Virus record (IMG/VR): IMGVR_UViG_3300012349_000002 | Coordinates: 1 to 56,247 of that record | Source of the DNA: a virus | Reading direction: 5' to 3' (one strand) | DNA length: 56,247 bases | Shown: one piece after another, positions 2,909 through 34,897 of the stretch | How the letters are laid out: each line of letters begins with the position of its first letter | How positions within the stretch are numbered: the stretch's first letter is position 1 | Position numbers and translations under genes: made by a program | The notes under the pieces: generated by a model | The model's input: only the letters and a program-made list of their open reading frames with translations | Told to the model about the DNA's origin: nothing | Database searches by the model: none

Positions 2909-3753
2909 CTGAAGTATTGACTGCACAGGAGAAAACACGTGAGGGGCCAGGGATACCCTCCGAGGCGATGCATTGGTACACCCGCAAAGGGCAACCAATG
3001 TATGAGGTTCAAGGCAAAAACGGCAAGATGCGCCCTACCACCTTAGCCGATGCGCGCAAGCTTGATCTTGTTCCCGGCTACAGCACTATTGCGAAACAAG
3101 TCTGGAATTTCGGGCTGCTCCGCTACATGAAAAAAGAGGTGGCGATGAGCGCGCTTACAATCCCGAGAATTGACGATGAGAATGACGAAGCGTTCATAGA
3201 TAGAATCATCGAGGAAGGCGGAGAACATGCGCGTTTGGCTGCTGAACGCGGTACATCTTTGCACAAAGCGATTGCGGATTATCATGTTACTGGGCGATGC
3301 GCGCCGGAATGGATAGAGCATATAAAAGCTGTTAACGCCGCGATGGAACAATACGGTATCGACGTTGCGGCGGGCAGAGCAGAAGTAAGCTTTGCGTCCC
3401 AACTAGGATATGGCGGCAAAGTCGATCTGCACAGCGATACAATCGGAGTTTGGGATTTTAAGACCAAAGAGAAGATCGACGACGAGAAACAACTCGTCTA
3501 CGACAATCACATTATGCAATGCGCCGCTTACGGGTTTGGACTGTTTGGCAAGCCTAGTGACATCTTCGGTCACACGCCTTCTCTCAAAATCGAGAAACCT
3601 TTCCCCGCCGGGAACGTTTTTATCGGCGTCGAAGACGAACAAGTGCGCATATTCGAGCACGAGTGGAACGATCTGCGCAATGGATTCTACATGTTCAAAA
3701 ACTTGTTGGAATATTGGGAGCGCAGCAAGAAATTCGGGCCGTACGCGAAATGA
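2905..3753 (+). CDS. PD-(D/E)XK exonuclease, RecB/Cas4-like
   Basis: The 282-residue protein shows the family signature in order: RGTSLHKAI (about 115-123), GGKVDLH (170-176) with the metal-binding Asp, DFKTKEK (184-190) as the (D/E)XK motif, and a downstream Q-x3-AYG helix (205-210). These motifs are typical of phage RecB-like/PDDEXK_1 exonucleases acting in recombination or end processing. It follows the SSB-like gene and starts on an ATGA overlap, so the two are probably co-translated. No Cys cluster for an Fe-S site is evident, which argues against a full Cas4. Confidence 0.75.
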   Translation: MTEVLTAQEKTREGPGIPSEAMHWYTRKGQPMYEVQGKNGKMRPTTLADARKLDLVPGYSTIAKQVWNFGLLRYMKKEVAMSALTIPRIDDENDEAFIDRIIEEGGEHARLAAERGTSLHKAIADYHVTGRCAPEWIEHIKAVNAAMEQYGIDVAAGRAEVSFASQLGYGGKVDLHSDTIGVWDFKTKEKIDDEKQLVYDNHIMQCAAYGFGLFGKPSDIFGHTPSLKIEKPFPAGNVFIGVEDEQVRIFEHEWNDLRNGFYMFKNLLEYWERSKKFGPYAK

Positions 3754-30651: not shown

Positions 30652-33498
30652 ATGCCTGCTGATCCGAATGATTATGAAATTGTCGCTAACCCAAGTGATT
30701 TTGAGGTCGTAGCAGCACCAAAGCCTGTCGAAAGTCCAGCAGTCGCCTACGGTCAGCGAATGGGCGGTGGTGAAGTGAATCCGAAAGGAACGCAGCAACT
30801 CGGAGAATTACTTCGCGGTGCGGATTTAGCGACAATTCCCAGCGATGTCGCAGCGACACTAACCCCTCTCACCGCCGTCCCACACGCAATTAAGGAAGCA
30901 TACGATGTGCTGCGAGGAGTTCCGGTTGAGCAAGCGGTTCCTGAAAGCCAGAAATTTGTAGGCGTCGAGACAAAGCCGCTGGAAGAACGGATCACGACTG
31001 GTGCGGACACCGCTATCCAACTCTTATTCGCCAAGGGAATCGCGGGCGGTCTGTCCGAGACGCTTGGATTCGCCGAGCGACCACCAATTTTACCAGAAAC
31101 GGCAGCAGTACCAGAAGTTCAACCACAAGGAGGTGAGACAGGTGCCATACAAGAGCAAAAAGCAGCAGAGATACTTCAACGTCCACGCGGCGGAATTGGA
31201 GAGGCAGGGGGTAAACGTGGCGGAGTGGAACCAAGCGTCCAAGGGCCAGAAATTGCCGCTCCGGGCGCGGAAGAAGGGGCGATAGCAGAGAAACCAAAAG
31301 AAGCAGCAGCTCCTGTTGCGGTGGAACCAACGATTCCAAATAGTCCAACGAGCCTTAAAAATGCTGTAGTTGATCAGGAACGTGAAGCAAGAGGATTGCC
31401 GTCTGTAGTTCAACCGGCGCGCCAAGGATTTGGCGAACTGTGGGACAGGGTATCGCAAAAGATAGATCAAGACCCAAATTATCCAGATCAAGTCATTCAG
31501 TCGCTCAAAGATAATAAACGTGCAATGACGGCAGAGGAAGATGCCGCCTTGCTCCACCGTCAGGTTGATCTCCAAAATCAGTACGCAAAAACTAATCAGA
31601 CGGTAATAGACGCGAAGGCTGCGGGTGACGATACAGCGTTGTCGGAAGCCAGTGCGCGATCCAAGGCGTTGTCCGATCAATTACTGGAAATTTACGATAT
31701 TGGCAGGGCTGGTGGGCGCGAGACTGCGCTTGGGTTAAATGCCAGAAAACTTCTTTCAAACGAAGATTTTTCGTTGGGCAACATGATAACCCAAAAGCGC
31801 GCAGACCAAATGGGCGCGGAACTCACGCCGGAAGAAACCGCGCAAGTCACTAAGGCGCACGAAAACATAACCGCTAAACGCATCGCTTTGGACGCCTACG
31901 AAACATCTCCACGCGCTGAATCTTACCGCAAACAACTCCAGAAATGGAAGGATGAATACCAGCAGAGAACGACTGAGGGAGATTTCGCACCGACGGTTCG
32001 GCAACGGCTACTCCTCGATCCAGAGGGAATGAAAATTAAAGCCGACTTTGAAAGGTCTAAGGCCGATTGGCAGCGGTCACGAGTAGCCGATCAAGCGGCC
32101 AGCCGCACTCCAAGCCAGAAGTTTTGGGATAACTTCGTTGGCGTTGAGCGCGCAATGAAGCTGTCTTCTGACGTTGTTCTTGCCAAGTTGACCGCTGCCG
32201 CTGCCGTTCGCGAGGCCGGTCTTACCCCGGCGGAGCAGCTCGTTGGTAGTGTAACTCGTCAAATAATTCCCGGGATCGCCGCAAAAGCCCCAAGGTACGG
32301 TGGAGGATTCTCGCTCGATTCCGAGATAAATGCTAAACGTGAGATGTTCACCACGGGCATGAAAGATGCGTGGCAAAATCTCCAAATGAAGCAGACCGAT
32401 CTGGACGAACTTTACAAGACTGGAAAGATCAAAGCGCCTGACGAATTTTATGATTACATGGGTTATCTACACGGGGCGCTTAAAGCACCGATCAAGAGGG
32501 CTGAGTTTGCGCGGTCATTAACCGAGAGGATGAAATGGGCAACGCAGCAAGGCCAAGACGTGAATAGTCAACCGGTGATGCGGCAGTTGTCCGAGCAGGC
32601 GTACGTGGACGCTAATCGTTCGATATTCTTGCAGGACAACATCGTCAGTAAATCAATGAATTTGCTTAACCGCTACCTGGAAACGCAAAAGATAGCTCCA
32701 AACCTCGGGCCTGCTCTCTCGCGGATAAACAGGTTCTTAGTGCCAATCGTGAAAATCCCAGTAAACATCGTAGGGGAAGTCGCGGAAGGCGTTCACGGTG
32801 TCGCCAGTGGCGGAACGCGCGCTGCGCTTGCTTATATGAAGGGAGTATCGACCCTAGAACCTGCACAAGCCGATCTGGTAATGCGCCAGATCAATAAGGG
32901 GCTGATCGGGAATGGTCTGATTCTTACCGGCTATCTTCTACGTAATCAGGTTGGCGGATTCTATCACGATCAAGATAAACGCAGTCCAGCAGATGTTCAG
33001 CCAGGACGGTACAGAATAGGCTCAGTTGATCTTCCAGCATCGGCTGGGCACTCCACGGGTGCGATGCTTCTCAACATTGGAGCTACCGTTGGAAGGGTCG
33101 CAGAAGAACAAATAAAGAAAACATCATCTCAGACCAAGGGCGCCACAGAAGGATTGCGCGCGGCTGGTGCAAGACTAGCGCATGAAGTTCCCTTTGTTCC
33201 AGCCGTCACCGGAATTGTGGATGCGATGGATTCCAAGGGAGGATTCCAGAAGTATGTAAACGGGATGATAACTAGCACCACAACGCCTGCTCTGCTTTCG
33301 CATATCGCCAAGATAGCTGACACGCCGGGAACGTTCCCCGCGAACGCTTTGCAAGAAGCTACAAGGCGCAAACCAACCACTCCGGTTGAGGCGTTGAAGA
33401 TGGGCATTCCAGGGCTTCGACAGACGGTTCCAGAACCGAAGCCAAGAGGCGGCGGCGAAAGCGCGATAAGATCGTCTCGACAAAGGGAAAGTCGTTAG
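30652..33498 (+). CDS. Large internal virion (ejection) protein, 948 aa
   Basis: Very long, mostly helical protein: N-terminal ~160 residues, a low-complexity Pro/Glu/Ala segment (~160-215), a central coiled-coil region (residues ~250-620), and a C-terminal part with a hydrophobic helix (KGLIGNGLILTGYLL) and Gly/Thr-rich end. Size, composition and order after two smaller helical proteins fit the podovirus internal core proteins ejected into the host. The low-complexity segment coincides with an overlapping gene in another frame (31142-31285). It meets the leftward operon tail-to-tail, overlapping by 4 bases. Confidence 0.55.
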   Translation: MPADPNDYEIVANPSDFEVVAAPKPVESPAVAYGQRMGGGEVNPKGTQQLGELLRGADLATIPSDVAATLTPLTAVPHAIKEAYDVLRGVPVEQAVPESQKFVGVETKPLEERITTGADTAIQLLFAKGIAGGLSETLGFAERPPILPETAAVPEVQPQGGETGAIQEQKAAEILQRPRGGIGEAGGKRGGVEPSVQGPEIAAPGAEEGAIAEKPKEAAAPVAVEPTIPNSPTSLKNAVVDQEREARGLPSVVQPARQGFGELWDRVSQKIDQDPNYPDQVIQSLKDNKRAMTAEEDAALLHRQVDLQNQYAKTNQTVIDAKAAGDDTALSEASARSKALSDQLLEIYDIGRAGGRETALGLNARKLLSNEDFSLGNMITQKRADQMGAELTPEETAQVTKAHENITAKRIALDAYETSPRAESYRKQLQKWKDEYQQRTTEGDFAPTVRQRLLLDPEGMKIKADFERSKADWQRSRVADQAASRTPSQKFWDNFVGVERAMKLSSDVVLAKLTAAAAVREAGLTPAEQLVGSVTRQIIPGIAAKAPRYGGGFSLDSEINAKREMFTTGMKDAWQNLQMKQTDLDELYKTGKIKAPDEFYDYMGYLHGALKAPIKRAEFARSLTERMKWATQQGQDVNSQPVMRQLSEQAYVDANRSIFLQDNIVSKSMNLLNRYLETQKIAPNLGPALSRINRFLVPIVKIPVNIVGEVAEGVHGVASGGTRAALAYMKGVSTLEPAQADLVMRQINKGLIGNGLILTGYLLRNQVGGFYHDQDKRSPADVQPGRYRIGSVDLPASAGHSTGAMLLNIGATVGRVAEEQIKKTSSQTKGATEGLRAAGARLAHEVPFVPAVTGIVDAMDSKGGFQKYVNGMITSTTTPALLSHIAKIADTPGTFPANALQEATRRKPTTPVEALKMGIPGLRQTVPEPKPRGGGESAIRSSRQRESR
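31142..31285 (+). CDS. Nested small gene inside the ejection gene, 47 aa, GTG start
   Basis: In a different frame from the host gene, a near-perfect Shine-Dalgarno (AAGGAGGT, 31127-31134) lies 7 bases before GTG 31142. The product starts MPYKSKKQQRYFNVHA and runs ERQGVNVAEWNQASKGQKLP to a basic end. This matches a widespread small phage protein family (MPYKS-x-QQ-x-FFN...GV-x-EWN-x-SKG-x-KLP). The host frame here is only Pro/Glu/Gly/Ala low complexity, as expected if it was overprinted. Confidence 0.75.
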   Translation: MPYKSKKQQRYFNVHAAELERQGVNVAEWNQASKGQKLPLRARKKGR

Positions 33499-33656
33499 CC
33501 TTTTACGCGCTTTAATCGTGGATTCTTGCGCTTGGCCGATGCGCTAGCCTTGCGCGTGCTGCTTGCCAGAATCGCACCTGCTCTTTGCTTGGATACGCCC
33601 ATGCGTTTCGCTATACGCGATTGAACTCTTGCAAAACCCGGATGTGATTTAGCCAT
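33495..33656 (-). CDS. Small basic phage protein, 53 aa
   Basis: ATG 33656 overlaps the scaffold stop (TAATG). The protein is MAKSHPGFARVQSRIAKRMG then AGAILASSTRKASASAKRKN and LKRVKG. This HPGF-x-x-VQ...GVSK-x-x-AGAILAS pattern is a recurrent small phage protein, very basic and probably DNA- or RNA-binding. It ends the leftward packaging operon, overlapping the convergent ejection gene by 4 bases. Confidence 0.7.
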   Translation of the reverse strand: MAKSHPGFARVQSRIAKRMGVSKQRAGAILASSTRKASASAKRKNPRLKRVKG

Positions 33657-34897
33657 TATGCTCCTCTCGCTACCGCCATTGCTTCGTTAAACCGTTTCTT
33701 CGCCAGCTCTGTTGGTGAAAGCTTCTCTTCACCGTTACCTCCGGGAGCTGCGCCCTGAGTTGTTCCTCCAGTTGGCTTTGCTGCTTTCAGTTTCGCGTTT
33801 TCGGTTGCCAACTTCTTAATCTCTTCCGTCAACGCCACACGAACCTCCTCCAATGCATCGTACGCGACGCCCTTTGCTATGGTGTCGGCTACGGTTTCGA
33901 GGCTTACACCTTCACCGTTGAATACCAATTTGGCTTTGGATTTCAGGCCGTCCGAGCGACCGTTCCAAGGATCGTTGCCCTCGAATTTGCGGTATGGAAT
34001 GAGTTCGTTCTCATATCTCGACATGGTGGCGTTCCAAATTCTATCTTCTGCTTCCCTTCTTTGATTCAGAGCCGTTTCTTGCTGAAGTTTTTGAGCTTCA
34101 GCCATCTGAGTTGATTCTACTTTCCAATTTTCAAGTGACGCCGTTTTATGTCTCTGGATTGAATCGTATTGGGCAAGATACGGAGCCACAGCCGCGATCA
34201 GTTCCGGGTCAGCTCCGGCTTCTTTAAGTACTCTGATCCGCTGCGATCCGTTCGTTCGGGCAGCAAGATCGACAATGGCAGGATTGACTTCCGTGCCTTC
34301 GAAGTAGGCTTTTGCTCCGTCGAGCGATGCCATCTCTTCCGAAATGAATTGCTTGAATTTTGGAGATTCAGTGAACGCCAGCCGCTCAATGGTAGATTCA
34401 AGTTCCTTCGCCTTATCCTCGGCGGCCTTTGCCCGATTATGAGCAGCCTCAATTTCGGCCTTGGTCGAACCGTCTGACGTTTTGGATTCCAATTCAGCTA
34501 TTCGTGTCAATTTCTCTTGGATAACTTTTTTGCTCTGCTCTTTCAGCTTTGCGAAACTGGCAACCGACTCGGCTTTGGCGGTCGCTGGAAGCGCCATCGC
34601 CTCAATCTCTGAAATGGCTTCGTCGATCTTTGGCTCAGATTTTTCGCCTGAAATCAATTCCTGCGGCAACGTCGCTTTCTTCGCAGGTGCGGCCTCCAGA
34701 GGAGTCTCTGGTTTTTCCGGTTTAGGTTCCTCTTTTGGAGCGGGTTTAGCTTCTGGTTCCGTAATTGGCTCGGCAGGCTTCGCTGCGGCCATTGCGTCAT
34801 TGAATCGCTTCATGGAATCCTCTATCCCCTGAGGGAGAACAGGATTAGGAAGTTCGGTTTTAGTTTCGATAGGATGTTCTACGGTATCTGCTGGCAT
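33656..34897 (-). CDS. Scaffold-like head assembly protein, 413 aa
   Basis: Highly charged, Lys/Glu/Ala/Pro-rich, with a proline-rich N-terminal third and a central coiled coil (residues ~120-190; AHNRAKAAEDKAKELESTIE). It follows the portal gene, as scaffolds do. A 12-residue helix is repeated at both ends: MKRFNDAMAAAK (29-40) and KKRFNEAMAVAR (400-411). The end motifs may dock capsid or portal subunits. Confidence 0.6.
   Translation of the reverse strand: MPADTVEHPIETKTELPNPVLPQGIEDSMKRFNDAMAAAKPAEPITEPEAKPAPKEEPKPEKPETPLEAAPAKKATLPQELISGEKSEPKIDEAISEIEAMALPATAKAESVASFAKLKEQSKKVIQEKLTRIAELESKTSDGSTKAEIEAAHNRAKAAEDKAKELESTIERLAFTESPKFKQFISEEMASLDGAKAYFEGTEVNPAIVDLAARTNGSQRIRVLKEAGADPELIAAVAPYLAQYDSIQRHKTASLENWKVESTQMAEAQKLQQETALNQRREAEDRIWNATMSRYENELIPYRKFEGNDPWNGRSDGLKSKAKLVFNGEGVSLETVADTIAKGVAYDALEEVRVALTEEIKKLATENAKLKAAKPTGGTTQGAAPGGNGEEKLSPTELAKKRFNEAMAVARGA

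Follow-up and report, generated by a model that had tools for sequence, protein, structure and literature searches.

A conserved small phage gene nested out of frame in a giant, probably polyvalent-type gene: a recurrent arrangement with interchangeable occupants

In this study, a 56,247-base viral contig of IMG/VR (the window, which hereafter means this whole stretch of DNA) was analysed, and our results suggest, with a probability of roughly 85%, that a real small gene in it has been swallowed by a neighbouring giant gene, that it is initiated internally, and that the long-frame reading of the same segment serves as a linker. The nesting is a recurrent arrangement with interchangeable occupants and not a one-off of this contig. 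The features of the locus are listed in the table.

Table. Positions of the features discussed in the window
Feature	Position	Strand	Basis
Host gene, probable 948-aa polyvalent / internal-virion-type protein	30652..33498	+	fold search; 27 viral relatives
N-terminal stretch predicted as disordered, residues 1-238, containing the small gene	30652..31365	+	AF2 pLDDT about 25-40
Shine-Dalgarno AAGGAGGT, 8 nt	31127-31134	+	7-nt spacer to GTG
Nested small gene, 47 aa, KSxAQ/WDxASKGxxLP family	31142..31285	+	GTG start, TAG stop; homologues; AF2 model
Conserved helical domain, residues 220-538, downstream of the nested gene	31309..32265	+	alignments A1, A4; profile match
Stand-alone 53-aa basic gene MAKSHPGFARVQSRIAKRMGVSKQRAGAILASSTRKASASAKRKNPRLKRVKG	33495..33656	-	

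The small gene lies wholly within the long open reading frame, in its +1 frame, is present as a single copy in the window, and is read from the GTG to the TAG at 31283-31285 as VPYKSKKQQRYFNVHAAELERQGVNVAEWNQASKGQKLPLRARKKGR. The sequence-only reading had claimed a Shine-Dalgarno sequence and a GTG-started frame of 47 residues, placed entirely inside the 948-residue gene but in another frame, and both were confirmed; AAGGAGGT was moreover the longest Shine-Dalgarno match among the 45 nested starts that were compared. The low complexity which it had noted in the long protein at the overlap was also found, and this part is predicted to be disordered (pLDDT about 30). When synonymous codons were drawn at random from the usage of the contig, the long frame remained open through the small gene with a probability of 3.3%, and a chance reading frame was excluded by this simulation together with the Shine-Dalgarno comparison given below. 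The stand-alone 53-aa basic gene is convergent with the 948-aa gene and overlaps its 3′ end by 4 nt; a relative with 62% identity was found in contig L083, where a KSxAQ gene also stands free.

The membership of the small protein in a real phage family, as had been proposed, was borne out by tblastn against viral contigs that had been found independently (E 1e-16 to 1e-12, 55-69% identity), and the identity to the best twenty or so homologues was 50-69%. The C-terminal motif, put as a degenerate DNA pattern, matched at least 120 stretches of viral contigs, nearly all of them encoding a 42-60-aa MP-x-x-S-x-x-Q ... W[D/N]xASKGxxLP protein. The family signature is MPYKSxAQ...W[D/N]xASKGxxLP, and its members have an N-terminal MPxxSxxQ, an aromatic-His segment, the C-terminal W[D/N]xASKGxxLP and a basic tail. 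Both tblastn and alignment A3 place the protein of the window in this KSxAQ / WDxASKGxxLP family; P2, S5, Q8, E28, W29, K34, G35, L38 and P39 are invariant in the alignment, and the window has Asn for His13 and Asn for Asp30. AlphaFold (AF2) predicted a compact three-helix model with a pLDDT of 88. No model of Pfam, PHROGs or NCBIfam matched the small protein or the siblings tested, and searches of Foldseek/PDB and of PDB sequences with it gave no match, solved structure or named function.

The KSxAQ family is abundant and stands alone in most places outside the nested cases. Among the genes adjoining its free-standing copies are members of the terminase, portal, major head protein, endonuclease VII and head-tail adaptor families. 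As head, terminase and portal genes are found near these copies, a role in the head or in packaging is plausible, and the small protein may be nucleic-acid-binding or head-associated. A scan of bacterial genomes gave one copy, which stands alone in an Aminicenantes MAG. When 50,697 phage records were searched, neither the small nor the long protein returned anything useful, probably because these phages are uncultured and BLAST masks low-complexity queries. Phage C75C1 (L129, record 34530-34680) carries a stand-alone gene, MPFKSEKQRKFLYANKPKLAKQW..., which is distantly related to the KSxxQ type and sits, without annotation, between two CDS features. A KSxAQ module is also found in frame, within or at the end of proteins of 424-718 aa, in L008, L024, L033, L041, L044, L059, L067 and L104; the protein of L059 also has an SLT transglycosylase domain.

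The 948-aa protein had no match in Pfam. Foldseek against viral models related it to a PolyVal ADP-ribosyltransferase, an internal virion protein and a large polyvalent protein-associated domain, all with low TM-scores. Its relatives are 860-2250 aa long; the long protein of L073 gave a domain-profile match (E 1e-39) and also contains a DdrB-ParB domain, and the giant of L079, which has a KSxAQ passenger, is DarB-like. On these grounds a polyvalent or ejection type is probable rather than proven, and the name of ejection protein, given to the host gene in the sequence-only reading, was upheld only indirectly, by a weak fold match and by homologous giants. AlphaFold with 20 relatives predicted residues 1-238, which include the overlap at residues 164-210, to be disordered, and the helical domains to start at about residue 255. 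The conserved helical domain is marked by the motifs TSxKNxVxxER..RGLP and GLNARK.

Nesting in a long open reading frame, mostly of 700-2900 aa, was found in at least 42 other viral contigs, the nested gene being of the KSxAQ family or of one of three further small basic families. The KSxAQ family itself was nested in a large same-strand frame in 26 other contigs, which makes 27 with the window; the enclosing frames are mostly 670-2900 aa, that of L012 being interrupted by the contig end. All 27 KSxAQ nestings have the phase S+2 (small = long + 1), the same relative phase was found in all nested cases of the other three small families, and no nesting of comparable length in the other phase was found in the KSxAQ contigs. 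Ease of keeping the frame open might be supposed to explain the fixed phase. This was rejected, as the observed phase is the harder one by a factor of about seven: in random draws of synonymous codons from the usage of each contig, the mean probability of openness across the small gene was 0.029 for S+2 versus 0.209 for the other phase. S+2 was open in 7 of 63 distinct stand-alone copies. Codon 3 (Tyr) is TAC in 25 of 27 nested copies versus 19 of 41 stand-alone copies, a count in which 6 of the 27 came from a pattern demanding TAC, so that the fair figure is 19/21. In the comparison family, PQKQA, about 2 of 118 matches were nested, one of them being the added relative L123. In L073 and L131, the small gene is located near the N-terminus, at residues 46-90 of a 1830-2085-aa protein and about 580 aa ahead of the domain that the small gene of the window directly precedes.

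Relatives of the long protein were collected with a profile (A1) of the conserved domain, which gave 27 loci, 25 of them informative distinct contigs. In 17 of these 25, a small basic gene is nested in the phase seen in the window. The occupant is of the KSxAQ type in L273-L276 and L282 and, more distantly, in L267; of the PQKQA type in L256, L268, L270, L271, L280 and L281; of the KAKGKCP type in L257, L260 and L261; and of the YER type in L258 and L263. The PQKQA type is PHROG 2423 (E 9e-21 and 8e-20 for the two members tested). In most relatives no more than about 35 aa separate the end of the nested gene from the beginning of the conserved domain; in L268, L270 and L271 the gene extends into the domain. 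L123/L280, with a terminase 71% identical to that of the window, has a PQKQA gene at the place of the KSxAQ gene of the window, and the leader AGGAGGTGAGACA is common to L281 (PQKQA) and the window (KSxAQ). PQKQA was found in 6 of 42 genomes, and KSxAQ was absent from those six save for a marginal match in the contig of L268; this mutual absence is only suggestive, since the sample was picked partly for KSxAQ nesting. No recognisable occupant was seen in the stretches examined of the other 8 of the 25 relatives, where the linkers are too diverged for an exact empty site, nor in those of the cultured DarB-like giants BcepMigl, JC1 and Y7. One 65.5-kb contig (IMGVR_UViG_3300024219_000002) carries the same 1854-aa gene with its YER-type passenger (L258 and L259) at both ends and in one orientation, and this end duplication is either a long terminal repeat or assembly redundancy.

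The DNA similarity between otherwise unlike giant genes was often limited to the small gene. It was 92% over 0-147 of 150 in L019/L130, 91% over 0-123 in L019/L039 and over 0-107 in L035/L133, and 82% from -16 to 122 in L010/L088. Similarity that reached one edge and then ended was observed in L088/L132 (at 122), L050/L056 (from -22) and L134/L135 (from -80). At the protein level, the homology of L256/L260 starts where their different occupants end, and that of L274/L282 starts at the start of their occupants. When the nested genes were masked, the hosts formed eight groups unlinked at E 1e-6, five of which are single members. The slot has apparently been re-occupied by unrelated small basic genes via recombination at the gene edges.

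The same identity islands would suit a selfish insertion, in which an out-of-frame gene spreads itself into giant genes and the in-frame reading is its camouflage. The position in the long proteins varies, and the distribution is patchy, with at least 14 changes between the nested and free-standing states on a poorly resolved small-protein tree. It is reported that in ShiLan an HNH homing endonuclease of 195 aa lies out of frame within a large phage gene (PMC11855218), and this insertion is the closest precedent for our case. In both, a protein gene is placed out of frame in a segment without stops in the host frame, the in-frame reading is predicted to be disordered, the out-of-frame product is folded, the start is GTG and the distribution is patchy; in the window pair both frames are open, and the small frame is under protein-level constraint in relatives. 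Unlike ShiLan, the occupants here are basic proteins of 45-65 aa from several unrelated families, which are free-standing in many phages and sit inside giant polyvalent-type genes in a single phase. The product in the window, with 47 aa, three short helices and no Pfam, NCBIfam or PHROG match, does not qualify as an HNH protein of the ShiLan kind. In addition, no nuclease or recombinase domain was found in the occupants, the small gene often stands by itself amid terminase, portal and head genes, one slot is common to unrelated families, and the site is mostly a disordered linker rather than a conserved coding site. We therefore regard a selfish insertion as unlikely.

The constraint on the two frames was compared in seven pairs (L012/L073, L035/L097, L088/L133, L010/L014, L019/L130, L050/L056 and L134/L135). 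Summed over the pairs, the substitutions in the overlap numbered 15, 14 and 52 at positions 1, 2 and 3 of the small frame, and those in the flanks 345, 263 and 515 at positions 1, 2 and 3 of the long frame. Because the third positions of the small frame are the first positions of the long frame, this indicates that the small frame is the constrained one within the overlap; for the long-frame residues there, no constraint beyond the absence of stops was seen. The comparison of both frames in relatives, which the sequence-only reading had recommended, thus came out in favour of the small gene, and relatives have kept the small frame or swapped it for another small gene rather than retaining the long frame only.

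The start signals were compared with those at 3,029 further ATG/GTG codons lying out of frame in the same long open reading frames. A Shine-Dalgarno match of at least 5 nt was present at 33% of the nested starts versus 6.2% of the others, and one of at least 6 nt at 17.8% (n=45) versus 1.0%; matches reaching 7 nt occurred at 0.1% of the other starts. About a quarter of the nested starts had no match, mostly in AT-rich genomes, and these contigs are possibly Bacteroidota phages.

Such AT-rich copies without a Shine-Dalgarno sequence, and the long frame held stop-free across the segment, would agree with the small frame being a conserved relic or a nucleotide signal in what is now only an in-frame linker, the small protein being no longer made. 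However, the substitutions are concentrated at the third positions of the small frame, the small protein is better conserved than the long-frame reading in all seven pairs, strong Shine-Dalgarno sequences are enriched at the nested starts, the nested copy is the sole copy in each genome, and the slot is taken by more than one small family, every family having a start of its own. A relic or signal is thus very unlikely. Programmed +1 frameshifting, which would append the small-frame product to the upstream half of the long protein as its C-terminal end, without a start of its own, is hardly credible, for although the small gene is read in the +1 frame of the long one and, in the window, has 61 open codons ahead of its GTG, the open stretch before the ATG is only 3-5 codons in L088, L073 and L012, conservation starts at the start codon, which has its own Shine-Dalgarno sequence, and free-standing homologues have the same starting methionine.

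A small gene swallowed by its neighbour, as the sequence-only reading had suggested, is the best fit, and since many phages carry the small gene by itself, the long frame would be the later, overprinting frame. For this swallowed gene we infer the translation, the linker role and the order of events as follows. Both genes would be on one mRNA; ribosomes at the internal Shine-Dalgarno/GTG would make the 47-aa basic three-helix protein, and those from the upstream start a disordered Gly/Glu/Pro/Gln-rich linker before the conserved helical domain. The small gene would be the older one, once free-standing beside the domain gene, which may have grown over it and then fused onward, and unrelated small basic genes may later have re-occupied the slot. 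Downstream genes that overlap the stop of the small gene by 1 or 4 nt are in the S+2 phase, so N-terminal extension of such a gene would yield the observed phase, and the swallowing may have proceeded in this way. Where a downstream gene is close, most free-standing PQKQA genes show the 1- or 4-nt stop overlap, and free-standing KSxAQ genes show it in 2 of 15 cases. The flanking readings showed no remnant of a start codon overlapping the end of the small gene.

Nested phage genes are known from other systems. In lambda, Rz1 is embedded out of frame within Rz, and both proteins act together in lysis. The small gene here likewise lies within a larger phage gene and is read in a different frame, but the occupants of this place, unlike the joint lysis pair, are interchangeable. 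The sgl lysis genes of ssRNA phages (leviviruses) are embedded mostly in the +1 frame, in poorly conserved parts of the host gene, and have systematically been missed by annotation (PMC7693330). Our small gene resembles them in being wholly embedded in a large one; they differ in arising de novo with little similarity (PMC7693330), whereas the nested genes here are conserved families older than the overlap and belong to dsDNA phages. The hosts, like the polyvalent proteins surveyed by Iyer et al. (2017, PMC5512222), are giant and multi-domain, as in the DdrB-ParB protein of L073 and the DarB-like protein of L079. The word 'overlap' is absent from the text of that survey (PMC5512222), and nested genes would add a new feature to the polyvalent-protein class. 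No report of them was found in the open-licence literature. Gene finders limit same-strand overlap, and conserved small genes inside giant genes are therefore probably missing from annotations.

The at least 43 contigs, with four families in one phase, form a homology-anchored set for studying the origin of overlapping genes, and the direction appears clear here, a growing large gene having overrun an old small one. It is also possible, and we propose it tentatively, that giant polyvalent proteins of environmental phages carry a standard out-of-frame passenger slot, which any of several interchangeable small basic genes can fill in one fixed phase and whose conserved passenger DNA is a frame-preserving joint for swapping N- and C-terminal halves. 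If this is true, the small gene would be retained for two reasons, its product and its use as a recombination hinge, which suggests an unusual, frame-keeping way for giant multi-domain phage proteins to exchange parts.
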